In this document: positions 8,124-32,912 of the stretch, piece after piece
Position numbering within the stretch: position 1 is the stretch's first letter
How the letters are laid out: each line of letters opens with the position of its first letter
Origin: Sedimenticola thiotaurini
GTDB taxonomy: Bacteria; Pseudomonadota; Gammaproteobacteria; Chromatiales; Chromatiaceae
NCBI GenBank assembly: GCA_011051715.1
Contig: DRKP01000076.1
Coordinates: 1 to 34,216 of the forward strand
DNA length: 34,216 bases
Direction of reading: 5' to 3'
Made by a program: the position numbers and the translations under genes
Notes under the pieces: model-generated
Database searches by the model: none
What the model was told of the DNA's origin: nothing
What the model saw: only the letters and a program-made list of their open reading frames with translations

Positions 8124-8172
8124 GGAAAGCCCCTTCCCTCCTGCCGCTGGACGATGCCCGCGGTGATCACTG

Positions 8173-8418
8173 GCCCGAATATTTCACCCGGTCGCTGGAA
8201 TTATGTTTCAATGTACTGTATTTCATGCGAAATTCTGGAATAGTAGCAAAGTACAAATTGTTGCCGGGCATCGCTGAACGCGCCCTCGCACCGGTCTCGC
8301 CGTCCATCTGCGGTATTTGCTCAATCATCAATAGCTTCGGCTGTTGATTCAATCGCAAATCCGCACCTGAACGCCGATCCCGGTGCGATCATCGCGTTCC
8401 CGGGTGAAACATTCGGGC
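8173..8418. mobile_element. 246-bp MITE-like element, copy 1
   Basis: Bounded by 18-bp terminal inverted repeats: left GCCCGAATATTTCACCCG at 8173-8190 and right CGGGTGAAACATTCGGGC at 8401-8418, one mismatch apart when folded. Copy 2 at 13231-13476 is exactly the same length and aligns without gaps. The element fills most of the 328-bp space between sfsA (-) and the Pro-rich gene (+), so it sits in both upstream regions. Flanks are CTG on the left and TAG on the right; no clean target duplication is seen. It encodes no transposase. A frame on the minus strand (about 8167-8358) stays open in both copies but runs past the left end, and I do not call it a gene. Just outside the right end, TAGTAT (8419-8424) could serve as a -10 for the downstream gene. 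Confidence 0.75.
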
Positions 8419-8451
8419 TAGTATTGAGGCCGGTATACAGAGGACCAGCCA

Positions 8452-13226: not shown

Positions 13227-13230
13227 CCTG

Positions 13231-13476
13231 GCCAGAATATTTCACCCGATCGCTGAAATCATGTTTCAACATACTGTATTTCATGCGGAATCCTGGAATA
13301 TTCACGGAGTACGAAATGTTTCCTGGCATCGCTGAACGCGCCCTCGCACCGGTCTCGCCGTCCATCTGCGGTATTTGCTCGATCATCAATAGCTTCGGCT
13401 GTTGATTCAATCGCAAATCCGCACCTGAACGCCGATTCCGGCGCGATCATCGCGTTCCCGGGTGAAATATTCGGGC
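13231..13476. mobile_element. 246-bp MITE-like element, copy 2
   Basis: Same length and order as copy 1. Terminal repeats are GCCAGAATATTTCACCCG (13231-13248) and CGGGTGAAATATTCGGGC (13459-13476). The right 135 or so bases differ from copy 1 at only about four positions, whereas the left 110 differ at roughly eighteen. The last base of the right terminus is also the last base of the TAG stop codon of the phosphatidyltransferase gene read from the other side. Flanks are CCTG on the left and TAGT on the right. No transposase is encoded. It is visibly AT-richer than neighbouring genes. Confidence 0.75.
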
Positions 13477-14030
13477 TAGTCGTGACTGCCGTAGTCGCGG
13501 GCGCGGCGGCTCCAGACCCAGACATAGTCCACTCCGCTGGCGATGGTGGTGACGAACACCAGCCACACCATGCCCTGCAGCACCGGTTGCGGCAGCGCCA
13601 CCAGCCCGCGGTCGAGGACCACCACCAGCACGAGCAGGATCTGGGCCAGGGTGTTGAACTTGCTGATCAGGCTCGGCTCCGCCTCCAGCTCCCGGATCCG
13701 GAAGTTGTAGACCAGGGCGCCGGTGACGATCACCAGGTCACGCAGGATCACCAGCAGCATCAGCGCCACCGGGATCAGCCCCATGATGGCCAGGGTGAGG
13801 TAACAGGAGACCAGCAGCACCTTGTCGGCCAGCGGATCGAGCAGCCCGCCCAGCCGGCTCTGCCAGCCGTAGTGCTTGGCCAGGAAGCCGTCCAGGCCGT
13901 CCGACACGCCGGCCACCACGAACAGCAGCAGGGCGACGTCGAACCGCTGCTCGAGCAGCGCCCACACCACCGGGACGGTGAGAAAGATGCGCAGGACGCT
14001 GATCAGATTGGGGATATCTTCCCTTCGCAT
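13476..14030 (-). CDS. CDP-alcohol phosphatidyltransferase family protein
   Basis: Inner-membrane enzyme of 184 residues that transfers a phosphatidyl group from CDP-diacylglycerol to an alcohol, closest in look to PgsA (phosphatidylglycerophosphate synthase). The metal-binding signature is present: Asp44, Asp47, Asp65 and Asp69 in SDGLDGFLAK and LLDPLADK. The AR of the consensus reads AK (51-52). Several helices surround it (IFLTVPVVWALL, LLLVSCYLTLAIMGLIPVALML, ILLVLVVVLD). The substrate is not certain, since a genome may carry another pgsA. The ATG at 14030 is 25 bp after the DUF2066 gene, likely one transcript. Its TAG stop is formed with the right terminus of repeat element copy 2. Confidence 0.88.
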   Translation of the reverse strand: MRREDIPNLISVLRIFLTVPVVWALLEQRFDVALLLFVVAGVSDGLDGFLAKHYGWQSRLGGLLDPLADKVLLVSCYLTLAIMGLIPVALMLLVILRDLVIVTGALVYNFRIRELEAEPSLISKFNTLAQILLVLVVVLDRGLVALPQPVLQGMVWLVFVTTIASGVDYVWVWSRRARDYGSHD

Positions 14031-15333: not shown

Positions 15334-16401
15334 GTGGATCACGACGACCAGACCGAGGGTCCCTCCCTCAGCTACCGGGACGCCGGCGTCGACATCGATG
15401 CCGGCAACCGCCTGGTGGAGCGCATCAAGCCCATCGTCCGGCAGACCTTCCGCCCCGGGGTGATGACCGGGCTCGGCGGCTTCGGCGCCCTGTTCGAGCT
15501 GCCCCTGGAGCGCTACCGGGAGCCGGTGCTGGTGTCCGGCACCGATGGTGTCGGCACCAAGCTGAAACTGGCCCTGGCGCTGGGGCGGCACGACACCATT
15601 GGCATCGACCTGGTGGCCATGTGTGTCAACGACATCGTGGTCACCGGCGCCGAGCCCCTGTTCTTCCTCGACTACTACGCCACCGGCCGGCTGGACGTGG
15701 AGGTGGCCACCGAGGTGGTGCGCGGCATCGCCCGCGGCTGCGAGCTGGCCGGCGCGGCGCTGACCGGTGGCGAGACCGCCGAGATGCCGGGCATCTACCA
15801 GGAAGGGGACTACGACCTGGCCGGGTTCTGCGTCGGCATCGCCGAGAAATCGCGCCTGATCGAGCCCGGCCACGTCGGCGAGGGGGACGTGCTGCTGGCG
15901 CTGGCCTCCTCCGGACCCCACTCCAACGGCTACTCCCTGATCCGCAGGATCCTGGAGGTCTCCGGCGCCGATCTGCAGCAGCCCCTCGGCGATACCAGTC
16001 TGGGCGAGGCCCTGATCGCTCCTACCCGCATCTACGTCAAACCGGTGCTGGCCCTGCACCAGTCGATGGAGATCCACGCCATCGCCCACATCACCGGCGG
16101 CGGCCTGCCGGAGAACCTGCCGCGGGTGCTGCCCCACGGCACCCGCGCCGTCGTCGATCCCGCCTCCTGGCGCCGGCCGGCGGTGTTCGACTGGCTGCAG
16201 CAGCAGGGCAACGTCCCGGAGGCGGAGATGCTGCGCACCTTCAACTGCGGTGTCGGCATGGTGCTGTGCGTCCCCGCCGACGGCGCCGATCACGCCATCC
16301 ACCTGCTCCGGGACGAGGGCGAGACGGTATGGCGGCTGGGCCATATCGAGGACAGCGACCGGCCGCCGGAGGTGGTGCTGGCACCGGCGGATGCTCCATG
16401 A
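15334..16401 (+). CDS. purM: Phosphoribosylformylglycinamidine cyclo-ligase
   Basis: AIR synthetase, 355 residues, the fifth step of purine synthesis: it closes the imidazole ring of FGAM with ATP. Family motifs include [13 protein letters not shown], the nucleotide loop [47 protein letters not shown] and [16 protein letters not shown]. The frame is open from 15187, but the family N-terminus and a GGAG ribosome site (15324-15327) point to the GTG at 15334. Its stop overlaps the purN ATG. Transcribed with purN and the DUF3108 gene. Confidence 0.96.
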
Positions 16402-30490: not shown

Positions 30491-31186
30491 ATGAGCAACG
30501 AAAGCTACGGCAGACTGATCAAGGACGGACTCTGGAGCAACAACCAGGCGCTGGTGGCACTGCTTGGCCTGTGCCCGCTGCTGGCGGTGACCAACAGCGC
30601 CGTCAACGGCATCGGCCTGGGACTGGCCACCGCCGCGGTGCTGACCCTGTCCAACGCCACCGTCTCGCTGATCCGCAACTGGGTGCGGCCGGAGGTACGG
30701 CTGCCGGTGTTCGTCATCGTCATCGCCTCCTTCGTCACCGCCGTGGAGCTGAGCATGAACGCCTGGTTCCACGAGTTGTACAAGATCCTCGGCATCTTCA
30801 TCCCACTGATCGTGACCAATTGCGCCATCATCGGTCGCGCCGAGGCATTCGCCTCCAAGAACACCCTGGGCCGCTCCATCGTCGACGGACTGGCCATGGG
30901 CATCGGCTTCACCCTGGTCCTGGCCACCCTCGGCAGCCTGCGGGAACTGGTCGGGCAGGGGACCCTGTTCGACCAGGCGGACCTTATGTTCGGCCCGGCC
31001 GCCGCCGGACTCACCATGAGTGTGGGGGCGGGATACAAGGGCATGCTGCTGGCGATCCTGCCGCCCGGGGCCTTTCTCGGCCTCGGTTTCCTGATCGCGC
31101 TGAAGAACGTCATCGATCAGCGCCAGGCGGCCGCCGCCGAGAAGGCGCCGGCCACAGAGGCGACCGCACAGCCCAGCGCCGGCTGA
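30491..31186 (+). CDS. rnfE: Rnf electron transport complex subunit E
   Basis: Six-helix membrane subunit of 231 residues, homologous to RnfA. Cys28 in [17 protein letters not shown] and Cys111 in [17 protein letters not shown] complete the four-cysteine set for the intramembrane [2Fe-2S] cluster. The Ala-rich tail ([19 protein letters not shown]) is dispensable-looking. The ribosome site is weak. Its TGA (31184-31186) overlaps the edge of the solo repeat end, after which the convergent kinase gene ends 40 bases later. No rnfH is seen. Confidence 0.95.
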
Positions 31187-31227
31187 TCCCGGCGCGATCA
31201 TCGCGTTCCCGGGTGAAACATTCGGGC
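31185..31227. mobile_element. Solo right end of the 246-bp repeat element
   Basis: 43 bases matching the right ends of copies 1 (8376-8418) and 2, ending in the terminal repeat CGGGTGAAACATTCGGGC (31210-31227). The left 200 bp are absent. It fills the whole space between two convergent genes: its first bases fall in the rnfE TGA and its last base is part of the kinase TAG. It folds as CCCGG-CGCGAT (31188-31198) with ATCGCG and CCGGG (31200-31205, 31209-31213), an 11-bp stem with a three-base bulge. It may act as a transcription end for both genes. Confidence 0.65.
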
Positions 31228-32912
31228 TAACGCTCATCCGGCTCCTTGGCAAGCAGGGCCGACACCGCCTGCCACAGTGGTTCGACCGTCACCGGCTTCA
31301 CCAGGAAGCCGGTATGGGGGGTATCCGGGATCAGATGGCGCCCCCGGTAGCCGATGAAGAGCACCGGCAGGGAGGTCCCCAGGTGCTCCCGGATCACGTC
31401 CGCCAGTCGCCGGATATCGACCCCCTCGGGCGTGTCGGAGATCATCGCCAGGTCGATCCCCTCCTCCGCTTCGCCGATGGCTGCGACCACCCCGGACAGA
31501 TCTGCAATCCGCGCCACCGGCCGGCACAGGATCCGCAGCTCGGTGCAGGCATCGCGCAGGGTCCGCAGGCTGCGTTCGTCGACCTCGAACGCCAGCGCCC
31601 GCAATGGCCGGTCGTCATTGAGCTGTATCCGTTCCGAGAACTCGGCCGCCAGCAGCGGCAGTTCGAGCCAGAAGCAGGAACCCTCGCCCGGCCGGCTGTC
31701 GAAACCGATCCGGCCCTCCATCAGGTGGACCAGGCTGCGGGCCACCGTCGTGCCCAGCCCGGTGCCGCCGGCTGCGGGATCGGCCTGCCAGAAACGTTCG
31801 AACACCCGGGAGCGCTGCTCCGCCGCGATGCCGATCCCGGTGTCGCGCACCTCGATCCGCAACCATCCCTGTCCATGCCGGTCACGCCGTTCCAGTGGTC
31901 GGACCACCACCTCCACATGGCCCCTGTCGGTGAACTTGATGGCATTGCCCACCAGGTTGAACAGGATCTGCTTCAGGCGCAGCTCATCCCCCACCCCCAC
32001 CCGGGGCAGGCGGGCATCGATATGGCAGATCAGCTCCAGTCCCTTGTCCAGGGCGCGGTTGGACAACGCCTCGCAGACATCACGCACTGCCGTGCGCAGC
32101 TCGAACGGTGTCCATTCCAGGCGCAGGTCACTGGACCCGATGCGGGAAAAATCGAGCACGTCGCCGATCAGCGCGTTCAGCAGAACCGCCGACGAGGCGA
32201 TGGTCTCCACGTACTCCTCCTGCTGGCGTGTCAGTGGCGTCTCCTGCAGTTTCCGGGCGATGCCACGGATCCCTCCCAGAGGCCCCCGCAGTTCCTGGGT
32301 CATGGTGGAGAGGAACAGCTCCCGCGCCTGGGCCGAGCGCTCCGCCTCCAGCTGCGCATGGTAGAGTCTGCCGAGCAGCTGGCGCTGGTACAGGGGCAGG
32401 GCGAACAGCACCAGCAGGTAGAAGGCGGCCTCCAGGGGCGCGGCAGCCCAGCCACCGGTCAGCAGCAGGACCACACTGTAGGAGACGATACTCACCACCG
32501 AGGCGACATTGAGGTAATTGCGTCCATAGCGGGCACCGTAGCCGACGAAGATCCAGATATAGAGCAGAAAGAAGGGGCTGAAGGCCTGTCCGGTCAGGTA
32601 GATCGCGGCACTCACCGCGCTGATGTCGGTCAGCAGTCCCAGGTAGATCCTGGCCGGCCAGTAGGGACGCCGGATCACGCTGAACAGGAAGCCGAGCGAA
32701 GTGCCGAGATAGATCCCGAACAGCCAGAAGATGCCCCTGCTGTCCCCCTGGTAGTAGCCGGCATAGGAGGCGACCCCGAAATAGAGCGAAGCGAACAGCC
32801 ACATGCCCATGCGGATGATCGCAGACTTGAACTCGGGACTGCCGGAGAGGGAGCGGACCGGACGCTCGGCCGCCGGTTGTCCCGCGCGATCGGACCCGGG
32901 CCAGTTGATCAC
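31227..32912 (-). CDS. Degenerate RpfC-like hybrid sensor histidine kinase
   Basis: Membrane protein of 561 residues. About five to six helices lie between 30 and 176, resembling the sensor region of RpfC-type kinases; then comes a dimerisation/H-box segment (about 190-255), a HATPase_c domain (about 270-420) and a receiver-like C-terminus (about 436-556). The ATP-binding boxes are intact: N box NLVGNAIKF (Asn323), G1 DTGIGI (357-362), G2 GGTGLG (382-387). The H box reads FLSTMTQELRGPL: the phospho-accepting His is replaced by Gln206 (codon CAG). In the receiver, acidic Asp445-Glu446 and Lys539 remain, but the phospho-Asp position reads Ser492 (or is shifted to Asp493). Autophosphorylation in the normal way is therefore unlikely. 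GTG start after GGGGGG. Its TAG overlaps a repeat terminus. No partner regulator is adjacent. Confidence 0.85.
   Translation of the reverse strand: MINWPGSDRAGQPAAERPVRSLSGSPEFKSAIIRMGMWLFASLYFGVASYAGYYQGDSRGIFWLFGIYLGTSLGFLFSVIRRPYWPARIYLGLLTDISAVSAAIYLTGQAFSPFFLLYIWIFVGYGARYGRNYLNVASVVSIVSYSVVLLLTGGWAAAPLEAAFYLLVLFALPLYQRQLLGRLYHAQLEAERSAQARELFLSTMTQELRGPLGGIRGIARKLQETPLTRQQEEYVETIASSAVLLNALIGDVLDFSRIGSSDLRLEWTPFELRTAVRDVCEALSNRALDKGLELICHIDARLPRVGVGDELRLKQILFNLVGNAIKFTDRGHVEVVVRPLERRDRHGQGWLRIEVRDTGIGIAAEQRSRVFERFWQADPAAGGTGLGTTVARSLVHLMEGRIGFDSRPGEGSCFWLELPLLAAEFSERIQLNDDRPLRALAFEVDERSLRTLRDACTELRILCRPVARIADLSGVVAAIGEAEEGIDLAMISDTPEGVDIRRLADVIREHLGTSLPVLFIGYRGRHLIPDTPHTGFLVKPVTVEPLWQAVSALLAKEPDER

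Follow-up and report, generated by a model that had tools for sequence, protein, structure and literature searches.

A 34,216-nucleotide stretch of Sedimenticola thiotaurini DNA (the window) holds two repeats of equal length and the right end of a third, and these raise the question of what kind of element they are, which enzymes could have moved them and why they contain a long hairpin.

Boundaries, copies and host range

Copy 1 lies at 8174..8417 (CCCGAAT...ATTCGGG) and copy 2 at 13232..13475, both on the plus strand. Their cores, delimited by BLAST and pairwise comparison, are 244 bp each and 91.4% identical with zero gaps, against 107 of 244 identical positions in the best random pair of 244-bp window stretches (up to 20,000 pairs), which bears out the preliminary description of two gap-free copies of equal length. 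The unit of 246 bp given there was too long, as its outer G and C are one base of a 4-bp target on each side. The 18-bp terminal inverted repeats (TIRs) that it reported are present (8174..8191, plus, and 8400..8417, minus, in copy 1), with agreement at 17 of 18 bases in copy 1 and 16 of 18 in copy 2. By sequence comparison, CTGG stands on the left of both copies (8170..8173 and 13228..13231) and CTAG on the right (8418..8421 and 13476..13479), so the target duplication is imperfect at both. The right end of 43 bp that had been placed at 31185-31227 is also real, with limits that now run from 31182 to 31226 on the plus strand; 43 of its 45 bases equal copy 1, and CTAA follows at 31227..31230.

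All three sit between genes: copy 1 between sfsA (minus) and a 255-aa open reading frame (plus) that has no family match, copy 2 between hda (plus) and a pgsA-like gene (minus), and the right-end fragment between rnfE (plus) and a histidine-kinase gene (minus), two convergent genes whose gap it fills, a point overlooked earlier. The name pgsA is provisional, because the TIGR00560 match of 88 bits is under the cut-off of 109. Two stop codons fall in the target site, that of the pgsA-like gene being the TAG that the right CTAG of copy 2 presents on the minus strand and that of the histidine-kinase gene the complement of CTA at 31227-31229. A simple scan found neither a terminator nor a promoter around copy 1, and that candidate role was rejected. 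A weak nhaA-I match at 16096-16144 (30 bits, gathering score 37) is probably chance.

The host genome, a 3.39-Mb draft in 194 contigs, contains 27 BLAST places of the element, which bears out the expectation of many more copies: 9 are full-length, each exactly 244 bp long, 5 are copies truncated at contig ends, 9 are fragments, 2 are short forms with both ends (152 and 138 bp) and the last 2 rows are the right ends of these short forms. Allowing up to 3 mismatches, the TIR pattern matches this genome 39 times, versus once for a reversed-pattern control. In three right-end fragments, each about 40 bp long, the break falls at a near-identical element position (window 31182-31230, L025 1501-1543 and L024 1498-1540); those in the window and L025 take up almost all of the space separating the stop codons of two convergent open reading frames, and TGATC is found at both breaks.

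BLAST matches occur in 2 of 55 genomes, the host included, the other being G029. Scanning named genomes for TIRs yielded 99 stretches, most of them from Sedimenticola, Candidatus Thiodiazotropha and Chromatiales MAGs, and together with the host, G029 and G389 these contain 81 distinct sequences bounded by TIR pairs, 36 of them exactly 244 bp long; inspection shows three of the pairings to be false (L086, 309 bp; L093, 244 bp; L131, 269 bp), leaving 35 of 78. G389 alone carries members of 244, 231 and 145 bp. At E <=1e-5, a covariance model built on the right 145 bases of the element, for which E-values are rough, matches 24 of 210 genomes from the order, spread over 10 of 61 genera. Matches fall below 1e-13 in 7 of these 10; of the other 3, two are represented by diverged sister elements of 159 bp (G440, G444) and the third by a hairpin-less form (G580). 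The family occurs in sulphur-oxidising bacteria. There was no match in the plasmid or phage collections, from both of which records near the window's genome are possibly absent, and a plasmid or phage repeat was rejected on this ground. Single TIR matches in Brevundimonas (L121) and Comamonadaceae (L184) records are probably chance, and in three Thiodiazotropha MAGs (L120, L139, L164) two outward-facing TIR-like sequences, always 606 bp apart, probably mark an orthologous locus.

The site of copy 2 was compared with pgsA loci from 26 genomes, 3 of which were left out. The 22 other loci with a pgsA match all lack a TIR in the 420 bp that follow pgsA, versus both ends in the window. In 8 of the 22, hda is a close convergent neighbour of pgsA, and all 8 lack the element, with 18-169 nt between the matches versus 346 in the window; hda lies more than 1 kb away in 3 loci and outside the locus in 11. 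This presence and absence concerns one site, and the compared loci belong to other genera, not to sister strains.

Ends and target sites shared with IS1380 elements

By their dispersed copies, TIRs and 4-bp duplications, the repeats are, as judged from sequence, a MITE, as had been proposed from the lack of a transposase; 244 bp is too short for a transposase gene. It is very probably non-autonomous DNA mobilised by IS1380-family transposases at YTAR sites. IS1380-type mobilisation, earlier only a guess, gains support from ends and a YTAR target common to the MITE and IS1380 elements; the preliminary description had missed this target. The clearest case is in G389, where an intact IS1380-family element (L210; 1578 bp including both CTAG copies) ends in CCCGGATATTTCACA and CCCGGATATTTCATTC, its TIR core and CTAG duplication matching those of the MITE; its 453-aa open frame matches PF13701 (1.3e-161) and the IS1380 family model NF033539 (1.5e-120). 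A second copy in the same genome is broken by stops.

PF13701 was searched in 16 genomes that each have one or more TIR matches, mostly draft assemblies; 7 have the transposase, 6 of them over the family cut-off. Ten IS1380 loci outside G389 were inspected, and 5 have a clearly matching end. Relics with both MITE-type ends are L218 in G400 and L220 and L224 in G408, and one such end is found at L227 (G400) and L228 (G408); the other 5 loci (L217, L219, L221, L222, L225) have no clear one. G400, a Thiodiazotropha, is a MITE host, while G408, of the Methylothermaceae, has a single TIR match that could itself be an IS end. The same search found no IS1380 transposase in G029 or in the 194 contigs of the window's own draft genome, so that we infer the driver in this host, in which an IS1380 element may formerly have been present. 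Among the 99 TIR-scan loci, TIR-like pairs 350-3300 bp apart enclose no transposase recognisable by eye among the starts of open reading frames, and a full-length IS at these loci was rejected on that basis.

Relatives on plasmids, whose ends were read de novo and whose names come from transposase annotation, extend the comparison. An ISPosp7-type element begins with CCTGAATATTTCACC... between two copies of CTAG, an ISMaq4-type element with CCCGGATTTCTCA... between two copies of CTAG, and an ISPa33-type element with CCCGGATTTCTCA... between two copies of CTAA. An Azotobacter element, the fourth of these plasmid relatives, has MITE-type ends and the unequal flanks CTAC and CTAA. These IS1380 elements (ISPosp7, ISMaq4, ISPa33) thus have the TIR core and a CTAG or CTAA duplication in common with the MITE; they differ in being about 1.6 kb long with a transposase gene. 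In a comparison with four IS1380 elements along their whole length, the MITE has only the terminal 13-18 bp in common with them. Beyond these there are only short matches, so descent by internal deletion is not supported, and a MITE interior derived from the transposase gene was rejected.

The flanks of the TIR-bound sequences point to the same target. Identical 4-bp flanks occur in 50 of the 81 rows, mostly CTAG, a share that is biased because the scan pattern demanded TAG before one TIR. The other identical pairs are CTAA/CTAA, TTAG/TTAG, TTAA/TTAA, CTAC/CTAC and CCAG/CCAG; non-palindromic direct repeats of this kind are not explained by the TAG requirement alone, and since CTAA/CTAA, TTAG/TTAG and CTAC/CTAC are direct duplications, the flanks are not merely extended TIR. 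The remaining 31 rows, both window copies among them, have no identical 4-bp flanks, in part through false pairings, offset ends or contig ends. In four copies of the host genome (L001, L005, L006, L009) the two target copies are one transition apart (CTGG/CTAG, CTAG/CCAG), a difference that very-short-patch repair of CTAG could presumably yield.

Target sites also overlap stop codons more often than CTAG sites do. In the named loci, with a simple ORF rule used to define genes, 15 of the 49 target sites that could be reconstructed overlap a stop codon versus 23 of 336 CTAG sites (Fisher p 8e-6), and with intragenic sites excluded the figures are 15 of 42 versus 23 of 139 (p 0.016). The stop codon adjoins either end of the element, the left in 9 cases and the right in 6. 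In the mechanism that we propose, IS1380-family transposases, acting in trans, would bind the terminal repeats of about 13-18 bp (core CCCGRATRTTTCACC), excise the element and insert it at YTAR, mostly CTAG, duplicating 4 bp. Insertions would persist mainly between genes and at stop codons, the latter because CTAG holds TAG on both strands.

Two other accounts of the repeats fare much worse. They could be a fixed regulatory or structural RNA element and not mobile DNA, as the strong covariation described below and the common fixed length might suggest, and the preliminary description had named a lack of further copies, with conservation at orthologous places, as the pattern that would point to fixed DNA. 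The many dispersed copies at 27 places in the host genome, the TIRs with their target duplications, and the hda-pgsA site that is empty in other genera contradict this account and make it extremely improbable. The IS5 group, which the preliminary description had guessed alongside IS1380, and IS701 also use a 4-bp YTAR target, and the target sites by themselves would suit mobilisation by one of these families. The matching ends, however, sit on IS1380 elements, and IS701-type DDE_5 transposases were found in 2 of 8 genomes, at loci that both lack matching ends; IS701/DDE_5 was rejected as driver on this basis, and a driver from any such family seems very unlikely.

The hairpin and what may keep it

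With mobilisation by IS1380-family transposases as the preferred reading, there remains the interior of the MITE, where a covarying hairpin that the preliminary description had missed forms a block (columns 109-235 of alignment A1) covering 8274..8400 in copy 1, as delimited by alignment, folding and covariation, and 13332..13458 in copy 2, both on the plus strand. The RNA fold of copy 1 reaches -107.9 kcal/mol (z -8.9; none of 200 shuffles as good) and its DNA fold -57.6 (z -7.0). RNAalifold predicts 48 pairs on the 48 aligned copies of A1, 14 of them with changes on both sides in at least one row, a count reached by 39 of 500 shuffles. In total 96.6% of cells pair, versus 26-48% with slid partners; 163 cells have changes on both sides, versus 56 in shuffles, and the score for covariation is 0.205 versus 0.094, values that none of 500 shuffles reached. 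Further pair types are not above shuffles (493 of 500 as high).

The pairing extends to relatives. In 29 rows fetched by the covariance model, and hence selected by a model carrying that structure, 901 of 971 cells pair (92.8%) versus 22-43% with slid partners; 4 of these are identical to training rows, and 16 come from genomes without a training row. In these 16, 463 of 544 positions pair when gaps are counted as unpaired, and in the six most divergent rows (L280-L285) 11-28 of 34 pair in a forced alignment. Two of the six, L284 and L285, span 159 bp (element strand, 1485-1643), are flanked by CTAG and have a TIR of CCCGCATTTCTCACC or close to it, and each folds alone into one long hairpin; their CCTCGC and GATCATC segments are kept despite different stem sequences. 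A 244-bp, CTAG-flanked element in G455 (L286, 1401-1644) likewise folds alone into one long hairpin; BLAST matches its interior to none of the training rows. For L280, L281 and L276 paired ends could not be located, and Rfam has no match at the MITE elements. Besides the sister families of L284, L285 and L286 there is a 400-bp CTAG-flanked sister element (L128, 252-651). A Thiodiazotropha contig carries a TPP riboswitch above the gathering score (L102, 344-449).

Among majority sequences of the host, G029, Thiodiazotropha 3502H_Th1 and bin2008, the hairpin block diverges by 0.16-0.24 between genomes versus 0.37-0.45 for the left arm. Within genomes, singletons number 94 in 5578 site-copies of the hairpin versus 120 in 3325 of the left arm (Fisher p 4e-8; the copies are not independent), and in most genomes variation in the hairpin is roughly half that in the left arm. 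The exceptions are Thiodiazotropha 3502H_Th1 (pi 0.105 and 0.118 for hairpin and left arm) and Sedimenticola M2 (0.031 and 0.035), where the two are alike. Mismatches comprise 70 G-T and 45 A-C cells, 39 of the G-T cells in one column pair; they have no clear strand bias, so no single RNA strand is favoured.

Hairpin-less forms of 124-152 bp recur in the host, G029, G389, Thiodiazotropha, bin2008 and D96SM.bin.13, including one of exactly 150 bp with 7 copies, 6 of which have CTAG on both sides. Movement therefore probably does not depend on the hairpin, and a strictly functional reading is the weaker for it. Apex variants also occur. In a 316-330-bp class from one Sedimenticola MAG (L112, L116, L122, L150, L153) the hairpin apex is swapped for a palindrome, GGGGTCGGAGTCAAAT..., which we take to resemble the ends of REP/RAYT elements, and in one 244-bp copy (L170, 637-880) the apex is inverted relative to other copies.

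The interior is a long imperfect palindrome. Most likely it would act at the level of DNA, aiding mobility or persistence, for instance by drawing together both ends of a short, stiff element. A more specific proposal, which we hold only tentatively and regard as rather doubtful, is that the hairpin is a selected functional module and that high mobility or host tolerance depends on its folded DNA or RNA; at least 7 genera, ten with the weak, divergent matches, keep an architecture of end stem, GATCATC segment, long stem and apical stem, often at exactly 244 bp, in which the stem sequences are replaced. The hairpin could quite possibly be kept with no function at all, through arm-to-arm correction by template switching in replication, which would give compensatory changes and low divergence without selection. 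The even spread of G-T and A-C mismatches over the strands fits this, as do the inverted apex of L170 and the recurring loss of the hairpin, as palindromes behave, whereas the two segments that L284 and L285 keep although their stems differ do not. A role as RNA, in which hairpins in 3' untranslated regions serve RNase III processing or stabilise the mRNA, has been proposed for Correia/NEMIS (in the available part of PMC2229807) but is unlikely here. That precedent, the strong RNA fold of copy 1 and the insertions adjoining stop codons speak for such a role, but there is no G-U strand preference, no Rfam match at the elements and no terminator-like site around copy 1, and the stop codon abuts either end.

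Relation to known elements and significance

Short, intergenic, strongly base-paired MITEs are a well-known kind, as far as the part of PMC2229807 that we used goes. The same part describes the RUP of pneumococcus, also a MITE with ends that match an IS, IS630-Spn1, whose action in trans has been proposed to move it; RUP differs in its 107 bp, IS630 ends and TA target. Correia/NEMIS and ERIC, there too short, intergenic and with a long stem-loop, have other TIRs, whereas the MITE here has a 4-bp YTAR target and IS1380-type ends. In the portion of PMC10813416 available, IS1380 transposases are the outgroup of piggyBac trees, and piggyBac transposons and their MITEs have a 4-bp TTAA-type target, comparable to the 4-bp target here; piggyBac is eukaryotic and nearly always uses TTAA, while this family mostly uses CTAG. 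MITEs of Candidatus Thiomargarita nelsonii, a large sulphur bacterium, have long hairpins too; their parent IS was not found, and IS1380 goes unmentioned in the text of PMC4853749 as far as it was available. Among the papers listed by our literature search on MITEs, IS1380 and piggyBac, none has a title or abstract start that describes a structured MITE paired with IS1380, and the present family was not met in the papers searched.

Unusually, IS1380 ends occur here together with a length of 244 bp that recurs in several genera and with a hairpin architecture that outlasts its sequence. Through common ends and target sites, the family links structured bacterial MITEs to IS1380/piggyBac-related transposases, and it illustrates how an element that targets CTAG can lodge at stop codons while doing little harm. 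Its natural forms with and without the hairpin, which have the same ends and occur in the same genomes, make it possible to test why long hairpins are kept in MITEs.
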